26,868 nucleotides of DNA from a virus. Below are positions 1 to 17,321 of the stretch, one piece after another; positions within the stretch are counted from its first letter, which is position 1; each line of letters starts with the position of its first letter. The stretch is taken from positions 1 through 26,868 of IMG/VR virus record IMGVR_UViG_3300042861_000319. One strand, 5' to 3'. Both the position numbers and the translations under genes were made by a program. The notes under the pieces are model-generated. The model was not told where the DNA came from, did no database searches, and saw nothing but the letters and a program-made list of their open reading frames with translations.

Positions 1-335
1 TCATCTACATCTAGAACATCATCTGAGATGTCAAAGAATTCACCTTGACCGAAGATAGCTTCCATGATCTCAGCATGGCGAGTCTCAATAGCTTGCTGAG
101 TAGCTGGAGAGATGATGCGTGAACGCTCTGACTCACGAGTCTTATCCTCAGAAGCCCAGATACCACGGAAGACTCGCTCATACTCCTGCCACAAGTCCAT
201 GTAGTTAGCATCTCGGTGGTCACGCCAGCGAGTAATGTGCTGAGTAATCCATGAAGTTAGTTCTTTCTCAGTCTCTGTAGGTTCCTCGAACTGATTATTA
301 TTTTCATCGAACTGATTGTTATTAGTTAAAGCCAT
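1..335 (-). CDS. Portal protein, N-terminal part (cut by window edge)
   Basis: The 111 visible codons start at ATG 335 and run off the left edge without a stop. A low-complexity Asn/Gln-rich start is followed by a segment containing ITRWRDHRDANYMDLWQEYE and then SRIISPATQQAIETRHAEIM. The 'sites of attachment' helix and the 'SPATQQAIETRHAEI.EAIFG' stretch resemble portal proteins of T7-like and N4-like podophages. The portal forms the dodecameric ring through which DNA enters and leaves the capsid. Its position two genes after the large terminase in the same direction fits a packaging operon. The assignment rests on sequence memory and gene order; the missing remainder prevents a length check. 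Confidence 0.7.
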   Translation of the reverse strand, partial: MALTNNNQFDENNNQFEEPTETEKELTSWITQHITRWRDHRDANYMDLWQEYERVFRGIWASEDKTRESERSRIISPATQQAIETRHAEIMEAIFGQGEFFDISDDVLDVD

Positions 336-2758: not shown

Positions 2759-2847
2759 TGCCCGTCTTTGTCCTATATCAAGGAGACATTTAAGTGGAGT
2801 ACTATATAGTACTAAGACATTATATTAAAGTTATAAGACATAATATT

Positions 2848-2897
2848 AATTATACTTATAAAGTATGTATTTAATACAACTTAAATTATACTTATAA
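2848..2897. repeat. 14-bp direct repeat in the leader of the leftward transcript
   Basis: AATTATACTTATAA occurs at 2848-2861 and 2884-2897, 36 bases apart, within the untranslated leader of the terS transcript. The core TATACTTATAAAG of the first copy recurs exactly at 6560-6572 in the leader of the rightward promoter. Its presence in two opposite leaders makes a regulatory or processing element more likely than AT-rich noise, but low complexity lowers confidence. Confidence 0.5.
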
Positions 2898-3022
2898 TAG
2901 TTTTATTTAAGTGTGTTTAACTACTATGTTCCCCTACTAGGGTGTACACCTCAGGCTTAGAAGACTTAACTTAGTAGTGGGGTCAGGCTACTTAGTAAAC
3001 ACAATTATTTCCTATAGAGAAT

Positions 3023-3051
3023 ATTGTATCATACTTTTGTCTATTTGTCAA
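3023..3051 (-). promoter_or_regulatory. Strong leftward sigma70 promoter for the packaging operon
   Basis: Read on the minus strand: -35 TTGACA (3051-3046, perfect), 17-base spacer, -10 TACAAT (3028-3023), with TATGA just upstream giving an extended TGn -10. Transcription would begin near 3016, leaving a leader of about 258 bases before terS. The spacer end AAGTATGA closely matches the two other promoters found in this window (AAGTGTGT, AAGTGTGC). Confidence 0.85.
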
Positions 3052-3087
3052 GCTTTTATTGTCATGTACACATATATTTCTTCTTTC

Positions 3088-3105
3088 ATGTGATTGTAGT
3101 CACAT
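3088..3105. promoter_or_regulatory. Perfect CRP-type binding site
   Basis: ATGTGATTGTAGTCACAT contains the exact TGTGA-N6-TCACA core recognised by the cAMP receptor protein of enterobacteria, vibrios and relatives, extended by one matching base pair on each side. Its centre (3096.5) lies about 80 bases upstream of the predicted leftward start near 3016, close to the -82.5 class I activator register. FNR-type regulators use a different core (TTGAT-N4-ATCAA), so CRP is the better match. A chance palindrome is possible. Confidence 0.55.
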
Positions 3106-3128
3106 ATATGTTTACTTATACGCTTCGC

Positions 3129-3359
3129 TGAAGTTCCCCATTTTTAGGGTGTCTGGTTAGTACTTTGAAGTTCTACTTTAGCCTTACAAATCATAGGGTT
3201 ATGTCTCAGGACTCTGATGGTCTATATTCTTCTTTTTGTGTACTCCCATACTCTTTTTTGTGAACTTCAGAGGCTCCTACAATAACATTCATAGCTACGA
3301 TGACCCTCCCCCCTATGAAGTTAGTACTTACTTACATTGTAGTGTCTCTGAAGTTAGTA
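3129..3359. repeat. Dispersed TGAAGTT repeats
   Basis: TGAAGTTC occurs at 3129-3136, 3166-3173 and, inverted, at 3262-3269. The longer TGAAGTTAGTA occurs at 3316-3326 and 3349-3359. Five copies of the TGAAGTT core in 231 non-coding bases suggest binding sites for a protein, for example an initiator or repressor. No obvious periodicity holds across all five, although the last two are 33 bases apart. Confidence 0.45.
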
Positions 3360-3399
3360 AGCACTCACTCTAAACTCATATGTACACTTATGATCTAGG

Positions 3400-3439
3400 G
3401 TGTCGGAATATTGACAGTGTAGTGTCGTAAAGTCGACAG
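3400..3439. repeat. Tandem dyad repeats, operator-like
   Basis: Two 18-base units begin with GTGTCG and end with GACAG (3400-3417 and 3422-3439), a 22-base period that is about two helical turns. The second contains the inverted repeat TGTCG-N6-CGACA; the first has the shorter TGTC-N8-GACA. Side-by-side dyads on the same helix face are typical of repressor or initiator binding sites. The site lies 98 bases before the DnaA boxes. Confidence 0.45.
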
Positions 3440-3536
3440 GTGTGCAGGGCAATGTAGCACCCTTTGAAGTATACCTATACTGGTAGGGGTATATACTCTG
3501 CAGGGTATACAGTGTTGCTAATATACAACACAAGAG

Positions 3537-3634
3537 TTATCCACAGGTTACTCACAAGGTGTGGATAAGATACTCCTAGGGGTATACAGTTATGCACAGG
3601 CAAAGTCTTATATAAGACCTAGAATTGTGGATAA
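3537..3634. promoter_or_regulatory. Cluster of four DnaA boxes; candidate replication origin
   Basis: Four perfect matches to the DnaA-box consensus TTATNCACA lie within 98 bases: TTATCCACA at 3537-3545 (plus), its complement TGTGGATAA at 3560-3568, TTATGCACA at 3590-3598 (plus) and TGTGGATAA at 3626-3634. Orientations alternate and spacings grow (centres 23, 30 and 36 bases apart). Known biology: host DnaA binds such clusters to open bacterial and plasmid origins. Location in the non-coding region between divergent operons supports an origin, or alternatively a DnaA-controlled promoter. Confidence 0.75.
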
Positions 3635-3872
3635 GTACTAGTTGTGGTGTTAGTAACTTTGTCTAAGGGGGTAGTGGCTTGACACCCTGTTATGGCCTCT
3701 GAGGGCTTCTAATCGCTTCGACTGGTGCAAGGCATTAGGGTTTATACGTAAGGGTTTAAAGTTTGCAAATAATTGTCAAAAACAGGTGTTTGTAAGTTTC
3801 GTGTAAGGTTCAGCTGGATAATAGAGGACAAGGAAGGCAAGGAGCTGACCTACTAACCCAAAGGAGCACAAC

Positions 3873-4094
3873 ATGGCGACACTGACATACTGGTACTGCG
3901 AGTGCAAGGACGATGCAGACGCATACTCGATCATCTCGAAGACCAAGAAGGACGCTGAGGCACAAAGGTACAGTCGAGGCGGCAACCGCTTTGAAGCACC
4001 AGTTAAGAAGACACTGCAGTATAAAGACGCATTTGACCTGCTAGACTGGGCAACTGGTGAAGCTGGTGGTCGTGGTTGCGGTTCAACAATATAA
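3873..4094 (+). CDS. Small early protein, unknown function
   Basis: The 73-residue product begins MATLTYWYCECKDDADAYSI, is rich in charged residues and has a Cys pair near the start (C9, C11) but no complete zinc motif. The ribosome-binding site AAAGGAG lies six bases before ATG 3873. Codons ending in C or G are more frequent here than in the neighbours (many TAC, GAC, AAG, ATC), suggesting strong expression or separate origin. I recall similar small proteins in other phages without known function. As the first gene of the rightward early cluster it is a candidate host-takeover gene by position only. Confidence 0.75.
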   Translation: MATLTYWYCECKDDADAYSIISKTKKDAEAQRYSRGGNRFEAPVKKTLQYKDAFDLLDWATGEAGGRGCGSTI

Positions 4095-14905: not shown

Positions 14906-16813
14906 ATGAATACAACTATGACACCATACCAAGAGTACATTGGCAAGAGCCGCTACTCTCGCTACTTAGATGATAAAGGCCGTAGAGAGCACTGGCCTGA
15001 GACTGTGAATCGTTACTTTGAGTTCATGACCAAGCACTTAAAAGACAAGCACGACTACACACTGACACAGCCACTGCGTGATGAGCTGCAGAATGCTGTA
15101 ACTAACTTAGAAGTGATGCCATCAATGCGAAGCATCATGACAGCTGGTGATGCTTTAGAGCGTCAGAACATTGCAGGTTATAACTGCTCATACCTACCTA
15201 TTGATGATCCCAAAGCCTTTGATGAGGCTATGTACATTCTACTGTGTGGTACTGGTGTAGGCTTTAGTGTGGAGCAAAAGTATGTATCTAAGTTACCTGA
15301 GATTCCAACTGAGTTGTACAATAGTGGCACTGTCATTAATGTTAAGGACTCCAAAGAAGGATGGGCTAAAGCCTTACGACAAGTCATTGCCTTGCTATAC
15401 GCTGGAGAAGTGCCTAAGTGGGATGTTTCTGGTGTACGTCCGGCAGGAGCGAGACTTAAGACCTTTGGTGGAAGAGCATCAGGGCCAGAACCACTCGTTG
15501 ACCTCTTCAAGTATGTGGTTGCAAAGTTCCATAAAGCGGTTGGACGGAAGCTCACCTCACTTGAGGCACACGATATTCTATGTAAGGTCGGAGAAGTCGT
15601 GGTTGTCGGTGGTGTACGACGATCAGCAATGATTTCCCTATCAGACTTGAGTGATGACCGTATGGCTCATGCTAAAGCTGGTAACTGGTGGGACGGTAAT
15701 GGTCAACGTGCATTAGCTAACAACAGTGCCATCTACGAAGTTAAGCCTGACGTAGGTAAGTTCATGCGTGAGTGGTCAAGCATTTATGAATCACATTCTG
15801 GAGAGCGAGGCATCTTTAATCGTTATGCAAGTGAACTTCAAGCAGCTAAGAGTGGACGTAGGGAATTGGGTAAAGAGTGGGGTACAAACCCTTGCAGTGA
15901 GATTATCCTTAGACCTTATCAATTTTGTAATCTGTCTTCTGTTATTGTTCGGAGCGATGATAGTGTGGATACTCTACGGAATAAAGTGCGCTTGGCTACT
16001 ATTCTGGGGACTTTTCAATCGACGATGACTAACTTCCCGTACCTTCGTAAGGTGTGGCAGACAAACACTGAAGATGAGCGTTTGCTGGGCGTGTCTATGA
16101 CTGGTATCTTGGACAATGCCTTGTTGAATAATCCTGATAGTGTTGAACTACCAGCTATTTTGGAAGGAATGAAGAATGTTGCTATTGACACTAACGCTGA
16201 GTTTGCTGACGCTATCGGTATTAATCGTAGTGCTGCCATTACTGCCATTAAGCCTGAAGGAACTGTATCGCAGCTCACAGGCACTGCTAGTGGCATTCAC
16301 CCTCAGCACAGTCAGTACTTTATTCGTCGTGTACGGTCTGATAACAAAGACCCTCTGACTGCATTCTTGAAAGAGCAAGGGTTCCCGTCTGAGCTGTGTG
16401 TGATGAAGCCAGATAGCACCACTATCTTTAGCTTCCCAATGCGAGTTGAGAAAGGTGCTGTACTGCGTGAAGACTTGAATGCTATCCAACACTTGAAACT
16501 GTGGTTACTGTTCCAGCGACACTACTGTGAGCACAAGCCATCAGTGACTATTTCAGTGACTGAGACTGAGTGGCCTGAAGTTGGTGCATGGGTGTGGAAT
16601 AACTTTGATGAGATTACAGGTGTGAGCTTCTTACCTATGGATGGTGGAACATACCGACAAGCTCCTTATGAGTCCATGACTGAAGAAGAGTATCATGCAA
16701 TGGTTGCTGCTATGCCAGCTGGTATTGATTGGGACAAACTGGTTGAAGGTACTGACAACGTAGAAGGTGCTCAGACACTGGCTTGCACTGCTTCTGGCGG
16801 TTGCGAGATCTAA
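14906..16813 (+). CDS. nrdJ: Ribonucleoside-triphosphate reductase, class II (adenosylcobalamin-dependent)
   Basis: The enzyme makes deoxynucleotides from ribonucleotides using coenzyme B12, independent of oxygen. The 635 residues show a monomeric class II layout: AGYNCS (Cys94, substrate-reducing), GTNPCSEIILRPYQFC (thiyl-radical Cys330, Glu332, second Cys341, with the same 11-residue spacing as Lactobacillus RTPR C408/C419), GVSMTGILDN, and a C-terminal redox tail CTASGGCEI (Cys627, Cys633). AAAGGA precedes ATG 14906. Such B12-dependent reductases are typical of marine podophages called cobaviruses. The 3' end is the likely insertion point of the following endonuclease gene. Confidence 0.95.
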   Translation: MNTTMTPYQEYIGKSRYSRYLDDKGRREHWPETVNRYFEFMTKHLKDKHDYTLTQPLRDELQNAVTNLEVMPSMRSIMTAGDALERQNIAGYNCSYLPIDDPKAFDEAMYILLCGTGVGFSVEQKYVSKLPEIPTELYNSGTVINVKDSKEGWAKALRQVIALLYAGEVPKWDVSGVRPAGARLKTFGGRASGPEPLVDLFKYVVAKFHKAVGRKLTSLEAHDILCKVGEVVVVGGVRRSAMISLSDLSDDRMAHAKAGNWWDGNGQRALANNSAIYEVKPDVGKFMREWSSIYESHSGERGIFNRYASELQAAKSGRRELGKEWGTNPCSEIILRPYQFCNLSSVIVRSDDSVDTLRNKVRLATILGTFQSTMTNFPYLRKVWQTNTEDERLLGVSMTGILDNALLNNPDSVELPAILEGMKNVAIDTNAEFADAIGINRSAAITAIKPEGTVSQLTGTASGIHPQHSQYFIRRVRSDNKDPLTAFLKEQGFPSELCVMKPDSTTIFSFPMRVEKGAVLREDLNAIQHLKLWLLFQRHYCEHKPSVTISVTETEWPEVGAWVWNNFDEITGVSFLPMDGGTYRQAPYESMTEEEYHAMVAAMPAGIDWDKLVEGTDNVEGAQTLACTASGGCEI

Positions 16814-16814
16814 G

Positions 16815-17321
16815 ATGACAGCCTATAATGGACTCCATAACAAGGAAGACATGATAGGTGTTCGCTTTAATAAGTGGACAGTGCTGGAGTATTCACATAA
16901 GAATGAACGCTCCGGCAACTGGTTTTATATTTGTAAATGTGATTGTGGGAACACAGCAACTGTTACAGGTACTAACCTTAGAAACGATAAATCTAAACAA
17001 TGTAAAAGCTGTTCTAGTAAAGTTAATGGTCGTAAAGGAATTTATGCACAGAACGTAGAAACAGACTTATATGTTATTAAATGTAATGACCACTATTACA
17101 AAATAGGAACTACGTCAAATCTTGAACAACGTTTAAAAACAATTAAGTCAAACAATCCTTATGCCCTAACCTGTGTTTATCACGGTAAAGGAAGAGGAAA
17201 TGAAGAAGAGTTTTGGCATAAATACTTTGAGAAACACCATTGGGAAGGTGAGTGGTACGTGTTCAATAACGAACAAGCTACTGAAGCAATATCAGCCATT
17301 ACTAAAGGATGTGAAATATGA
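16815..17321 (+). CDS. GIY-YIG/T5orf172-type endonuclease, probable homing endonuclease
   Basis: The 168-residue protein starts at ATG 16815, one base after the nrdJ stop. The N-terminal half (residues 14-68) resembles the zinc-containing DNA-binding module of phage homing endonucleases (GVRFNKWTVLEY, YICKCDCGN, Cys63/Cys66). The C-terminal half (84-150) has the T5orf172/MUG113-type GIY-YIG pattern: LYVIKC, YYKIGTTSNLEQRLKTI, EEFWHKYFEKHHWEGEWYVF. The final residues GCEI followed by a stop repeat the NrdJ C-terminus, in different codons. Its codon use is more AT-rich than nrdJ. Together these suggest a mobile gene inserted at the nrdJ 3' end. Confidence 0.8.
   Translation: MTAYNGLHNKEDMIGVRFNKWTVLEYSHKNERSGNWFYICKCDCGNTATVTGTNLRNDKSKQCKSCSSKVNGRKGIYAQNVETDLYVIKCNDHYYKIGTTSNLEQRLKTIKSNNPYALTCVYHGKGRGNEEEFWHKYFEKHHWEGEWYVFNNEQATEAISAITKGCEI

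Follow-up and report, generated by a model that had tools for sequence, protein, structure and literature searches.

DnaA boxes framing an SdhR-type operator core form a candidate interchangeable early-promoter cassette in phages

The window, a 26,868-bp virus fragment from IMG/VR, contains a cluster of DnaA boxes ahead of its early genes. On balance, we favour the interpretation that this cluster is an interchangeable early-promoter cassette under the control of host regulators, with DnaA acting mainly as a transcription factor. The sites and their geometry are evident in the DNA. So too are recurrence of the arrangement in unrelated phages, a palindrome identical to the core of a host operator and exchange of the cassette between relatives.

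Four exact matches to the DnaA box, TTATNCACA, occur at positions 3537–3634 on alternating strands (+/−/+/−). Box 1 (TTATCCACA, 3537–3545, +) and box 2 (TTATCCACA, 3560–3568, −) are conserved in relatives with the same cassette, described below as type A. Box 3 (TTATGCACA, 3590–3598, +) and box 4 (TTATCCACA, 3626–3634, −) are the left and right arms of a core module. Two further positions are degenerate in the window. The first, TTACTCACA (3548–3556, +), has one mismatch, and its counterpart is a perfect TTATNCACA in relatives L030, L036, L051 and L064. The second, TGTTAGTAA (3648–3656, −), is 22 bp after box 4, where many relatives have a DnaA box. Exact matches in the whole window number 5, compared with 1.73 expected, and none of 3,000 dinucleotide shuffles placed more than 2 boxes inside 98 bp. 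The close-set TTWTNCACA matches are thus above chance.

These data confirm the starting point of a sequence-only reading of the same DNA, which had described four exact alternating boxes in 98 bases beside repeats; the flanking GGGTATAC-type repeats are indeed present. The AT-rich surroundings described in that reading are moderate only, with a GC content of 33–45% across the boxes (60-bp windows) and a minimum of 28% at 3740–3799, against a window average of ~42%. The central palindrome and the conserved box geometry had been overlooked. The cluster occupies a noncoding gap. On one side lies terL, with a presumed terS ORF upstream of it that Pfam did not confirm; both point leftward. On the other is a rightward early operon.

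Between boxes 3 and 4 is a 14-bp perfect palindrome, GTCTTATATAAGAC (3605–3618). SdhR is a HutC-subfamily GntR regulator whose site is TCTTATGTCTTATATAAGACATAAGA (PMC4494728). It controls TCA-cycle genes, and the window palindrome is an exact match to the core of the published site; type C cassettes, described below, match longer stretches of it. A 19-mer, TCTTATATAAGACATAAGA, which also matches the SdhR site of PMC4494728, was present in 27 of 120 Burkholderiales genomes, while the reversed control was found in 0. On chromosomes, TCTTATATAAGACATAAGA separates mdh (malate dehydrogenase) from a gene for a GntR-UTRA regulator; it is also found upstream of isocitrate lyase. Shorter chromosomal matches precede genes that, judged by eye, encode aconitase B and acetylornithine aminotransferase. 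In likely hosts, the motif is therefore found near TCA genes and a HutC-type regulator. From these locations, together with the published SdhR site, we identify the phage palindrome as a host SdhR operator core, to which SdhR is predicted to bind.

Searching with the helicase-primase identified 80 loci, with identity from 93% (full length) downward. Conservation of the boxes in related phages, which the sequence-only reading had proposed as a check, was evident: at least 3 exact boxes are upstream in 27 of the 50 relatives with enough upstream sequence. Most type A loci have boxes at offsets 0 (+), 23 (−), 52–53 (+) and 88–89 (−), often with another at 110–111 (−). The distance from box 1 to box 2 in type A relatives is 23 bp, and 34 bp in one relative.

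The variable interval spans 3471–3735 and contains a type A cassette in the window and type B, C or D in relatives. Homology to relatives with another type ends near 3470, or earlier, and restarts near 3736 or 4280. The swapped stretch often takes in some small early genes. The left flank (2763–3470) is mostly noncoding and is ~73–89% conserved in stretches, irrespective of cassette type. Within this flank is a leftward promoter-like site (3051–3023) directed toward the terminase genes. The flank also contains repeats, GAAGTTAGTACTTACTTAC and GAAGTTAGTAAGCACTCAC, at 3313–3380; these are a candidate packaging or origin signal.

In type A cassettes, DnaA boxes frame the palindrome. Type B comprises four DnaA boxes in the same direction (offsets 0, 19, 38 and 73) with no adjacent palindrome. 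Type C consists of SdhR-type arrays, which match the published site at 21–24 of 26 bases, and type D of three CGGCAAWATTTGCCG-type dyads with 21-bp spacing; DnaA boxes are absent from both. A few more distant relatives match none of types A–D. Sigma54-like TGGCAY-N5-TTGC sites were found in 7 of 9 type B and 5 of 5 type D cassettes, against a background of 0.011 per kb-strand, and none was found in type A or C cassettes. With sigma54-like promoters in the swapped B and D cassettes, the interval has the behaviour expected of a promoter region. In type D, the three palindromic dyads (L010:5083–5158, L016:5268–5343 and L034:5715–5783) are followed by TGGCAT-N5-TTGC and then by early genes. The CGGCAAWATTTGCCG-type dyad also occurs in 17 of 120 Burkholderiales genomes. 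In type B (L027:4000–4200 and L002:1900–2130), repeated GGTGCA/AGTGCAC dyads upstream of the boxes look, by eye, faintly like NtrC sites.

Relatives with differing cassettes have helicase-primases that are 84–100% identical. For instance, L021 (type A) and L016 (type D) have identical primase DNA. Placing the four types on a tree of 47 helicase-primases requires 19 changes, a number close to that for shuffled labels, which gave a mean of 21.1 and were as low in 23 of 200 trials. Metagenomic chimeras could make single cases, but would hardly account for intact cassettes recurring at the same place across many samples.

A predicted early promoter lies at 3791–3822 (+). It consists of TGTAAG-N5-TGTAAG (3791–3796 and 3802–3807) and a −10-like GATAAT (3817–3822); the −35 region is poor. 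The first early ORF (73 aa, 3873–4094, +) follows and is presumed to be the first gene of the controlled rightward operon. More generally, types A and C have TGTAAG-N5-(T/C)GTAAG and then a −10-like GATAAT or GATACT. The strict form of the motif accompanies the cassette at 15 of 24 type A loci, at 9 of 9 type C loci and at 0 of 14 type B/D loci. All 24 occurrences in 1.37 Mb of strand are at the cassette.

In the window, 184 bp separate the start of the repeat from the palindrome core, CTTATATAAG. The corresponding spacing is 171–174 or 183–184 bp in all forward-oriented window-clade loci with the motif. Hence, a predicted promoter-like sequence lies at a fixed distance from the palindrome and before the first early gene. 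The two spacing classes differ by one helical turn and the intervening sequence has diverged. The test for helical phase is weak (p ~0.04, from 12 distinct intervening sequences including reverse-orientation outliers), and constant spacing could partly reflect common descent. The 11-bp TGTAAG repeat suggests yet another activator. As a direct repeat at 3791–3807, directly before GATAAT, it resembles a response-regulator site.

The palindrome and boxes also occur together elsewhere. Our search for this combination identified at least 119 viral stretches, and the composite element is present in at least 3 phage lineages unrelated by gene content. Many of these loci have no tested gene in common with the window clade. 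Outside the clade, they fall into at least 2 groups: relatives of DC31, and phages whose large terminase is different. DC31 itself, a Limnohabitans phage found by similarity, carries the module. In the Curvibacter phage P26059A, TTATCCACA, the palindrome and TGTGCATAA occur in the same order as in the window. P26059A, a siphovirus, encodes a family B polymerase (PMC5964084). Among the matches listed, which include 110 distinct modules, the left and right boxes are 36–38 bp apart, with a few at 47–48 bp, equivalent to one additional helical turn. For the same modules, the right box is 21–22 bp from the next box in every group with data. Such constancy argues for proteins in mutual contact on one face of the DNA. 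Because boxes and geometry are kept in relatives and recur in unrelated phages, the earlier proposal of an element that host DnaA would bind is well supported. The module of P26059A has the opposite orientation relative to the next gene, and that of DC31 is inside a long gap, distant from replication genes. Both placements equally fit an orientation-independent element.

Not every palindrome match was retained. Those in L084–L096, L119, L140, L145, L186 and L189 were judged to be chance, being mostly the palindrome and a single box with no cluster, and some matches of this class sit within genes. One of them, L092, has a single box next to the palindrome upstream of atp genes and was treated likewise. 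We found no plasmid relatives of the module. Two other observations concern these phages. A P26059A gene (KY981271.1 60783–61100; L241:22909–23226) is annotated as integration host factor, which is a DnaA partner at origins. In another lineage (L102, L170, L174, L184, L198 and L208), ACCCACTGGGT dyads adjoin the palindrome-box module and are possibly another operator array.

In the regulatory mechanism that we favour, host DnaA would bind the paired boxes along one DNA face. Host SdhR (GntR/HutC) would occupy the palindrome that separates boxes 3 and 4, either competing or cooperating with DnaA. The DnaA-SdhR complex would then tune the promoter ~170–185 bp downstream, at ~3791–3822, and so drive the rightward early operon. 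As a result, early expression would follow host replication and carbon state. Since no phage RNA polymerase was found, the early operon must use host RNA polymerase. Binding by either protein and the promoter itself are predictions from the DNA, and each protein may either raise or lower expression. There are precedents for DnaA as an activator or repressor, including in lambda (PMC8203912). A role as transcription regulator had been listed among the alternatives in the sequence-only reading and is the best fit, given the host GntR-type operator and the fixed distance to the promoter motif.

Possibly, each interchangeable early-control cassette reads a different host physiological regulator, such that near-identical freshwater phages differ in the host signal that starts infection. 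In this set, DnaA would be combined with SdhR or with a sigma54-type promoter, SdhR would act by itself, or a dyad-binding activator would work with sigma54. Swapping would be frequent, and the DnaA-SdhR cassette would be common to unrelated phages of the same hosts.

The replication genes bear on a different explanation. The window encodes a T7-type helicase-primase, a family A polymerase, a 5′-3′ exonuclease and endonuclease I, all confirmed. The rightward early operon leads to the replication genes and a class II ribonucleotide reductase. Two ORFs may be homing-type insertions: one at 1892–2311, HNH nuclease-like by eye, and one at 16767–17321, which starts inside the end of the ORF for ribonucleotide reductase and shares its GCEI ending. 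A search for a T7-type RNA polymerase gave no hit in the window, in eight relatives of 36–41 kb or in SIO1, and detected the enzyme in both CRP-361 and HTVC200P. Hence, the phage does have its own helicase, primase and polymerase with no visible RNA polymerase, as previously described. A DnaA-domain protein was likewise not detected in the window or the same eight relatives.

It had been proposed from these features that DnaA initiates replication in place of the RNA polymerase. In such a DnaA-assisted origin, DnaA would melt AT-rich DNA, and either the phage helicase-primase or host DnaB would load, replacing the T7-type start primed by RNA polymerase. Several exact boxes, or multiple pairs, in ~100 bp with helical phasing would suit this role, as would the missing RNA polymerase, the AT-rich stretch at 3740–3799 and the fact that unrelated phages encoding polymerases of their own carry the module. 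In cumulative GC skew, the window also reaches its minimum near the cluster. However, this minimum coincides with the switch in gene direction, which confounds it, and there is no skew switch at the DC31 module. We therefore did not rely on GC skew as evidence for an origin. Furthermore, type C and D relatives share the replication genes yet have no boxes at this place, and L021 and L016 differ in cassette despite their identical primase DNA. Since helicase-primases 84–100% identical coexist with box-less cassettes, the boxes are dispensable for this replisome. DnaA is not known to load T7-type helicase-primases.

The module is also not a copied host oriC. The compound pattern was found in 2 of 399 Burkholderiales genomes and the palindrome in 0 of 34 Burkholderiales dnaA regions, so we rejected this origin for the module. 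Its absence upstream of dnaA and near-absence from chromosomes likewise count against an origin function in the phage. Neither the box-less relatives, the flat skew of DC31 nor the operator and its spacing to the promoter motif favour DnaA as an initiator, and we consider a DnaA-assisted origin unlikely. It is nonetheless a serious competitor because transcription here could also prime replication. Indeed, the origin and promoter roles need not conflict; transcription from this region may help to start replication.

Titration is a less probable explanation again, and one that we regard as improbable. Phage genomes would act as decoys, titrating DnaA to stop host replication and an SdhR-type regulator to derepress TCA genes. 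Type A genomes do supply several DnaA sites and an operator core, and swaps for other operator arrays (types C and D) would suit a library of decoys. However, titration needs neither fixed site geometry, a single place before the early genes nor a fixed distance to the promoter motif. Very improbably, the 9-mers are read by some other host or phage protein and their likeness to DnaA boxes is coincidental: many copies are degenerate, but the consensus-free position 5 takes all four bases (TTATCCACA, TTATGCACA, TTATACACA and TTATTCACA), a pattern partly built into the search, and Burkholderiales dnaA regions contain the identical TTATCCACA box.

We compared the element, interpreted as a promoter cassette, with known systems. 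At lambda pR/ori-lambda, host DnaA near the early promoter activates transcription needed for replication (PMC8203912). The proposed element likewise places host DnaA near an early phage promoter. Lambda differs in being temperate, in encoding the O and P initiators and in having no paired boxes around the operator of a metabolic regulator. Like E. coli oriC, the module has several exact boxes in ~100 bp and in both orientations. Clustered DnaA boxes are also a feature of plasmid-like origins such as P1 oriR. Unlike these origins, the phage module has a central operator palindrome, no initiator gene or plasmid-type iterons were found with it, and its boxes are absent from close relatives with the same replisome. 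The palindrome core is identical to that of Burkholderiales TCA SdhR operators, but the phage copy precedes early genes of the phage and has DnaA boxes on both sides.

Temperate phages that are otherwise near-identical exchange immunity regions, which are control regions bearing operators. Operator-bearing regions are similarly swapped among relatives of the window, but here the sites resemble those of host regulators and the phages look virulent. Zobellviridae/cobaviruses (SIO1) and HTVC115P-type phages resemble the window in having a T7-type helicase-primase and polymerase, with early and structural genes on opposite strands. SIO1 also has a class II ribonucleotide reductase and no T7-type RNA polymerase. 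In contrast to the window, no DnaA-box cluster was found in the marine isolates examined (SIO1, HTVC115P, CRP-361 and HTVC200P). We conclude that the element would operate in the manner of lambda's DnaA-assisted control region and, on the tests made, belongs to no known origin family.

The host of the window phage is probably a member of the Comamonadaceae, within the Burkholderiales, because of the operator identity and the hosts of DC31 and P26059A. A TerL search of 399 Burkholderiales genomes, made without a positive control, gave no match. Phages of the window clade appear virulent, and we identified no phage repressor.

That phages make use of DnaA is already established. The phage literature that we searched contained no description of this element. 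Nothing there reported DnaA boxes paired with a metabolic operator, such a pairing shared by unrelated phages, or its exchange between near-identical phages. If our interpretation is correct, virulent-looking phages without an RNA polymerase would gate early expression, and perhaps replication, via host DnaA and a TCA regulator. Such gating would follow the replication and carbon status of the host. In lakes, exchange of the switch would then make the coupling of phage activity to host physiology evolvable. The shared cassette also provides a sequence marker for phages of the Comamonadaceae, few of which have been cultured.
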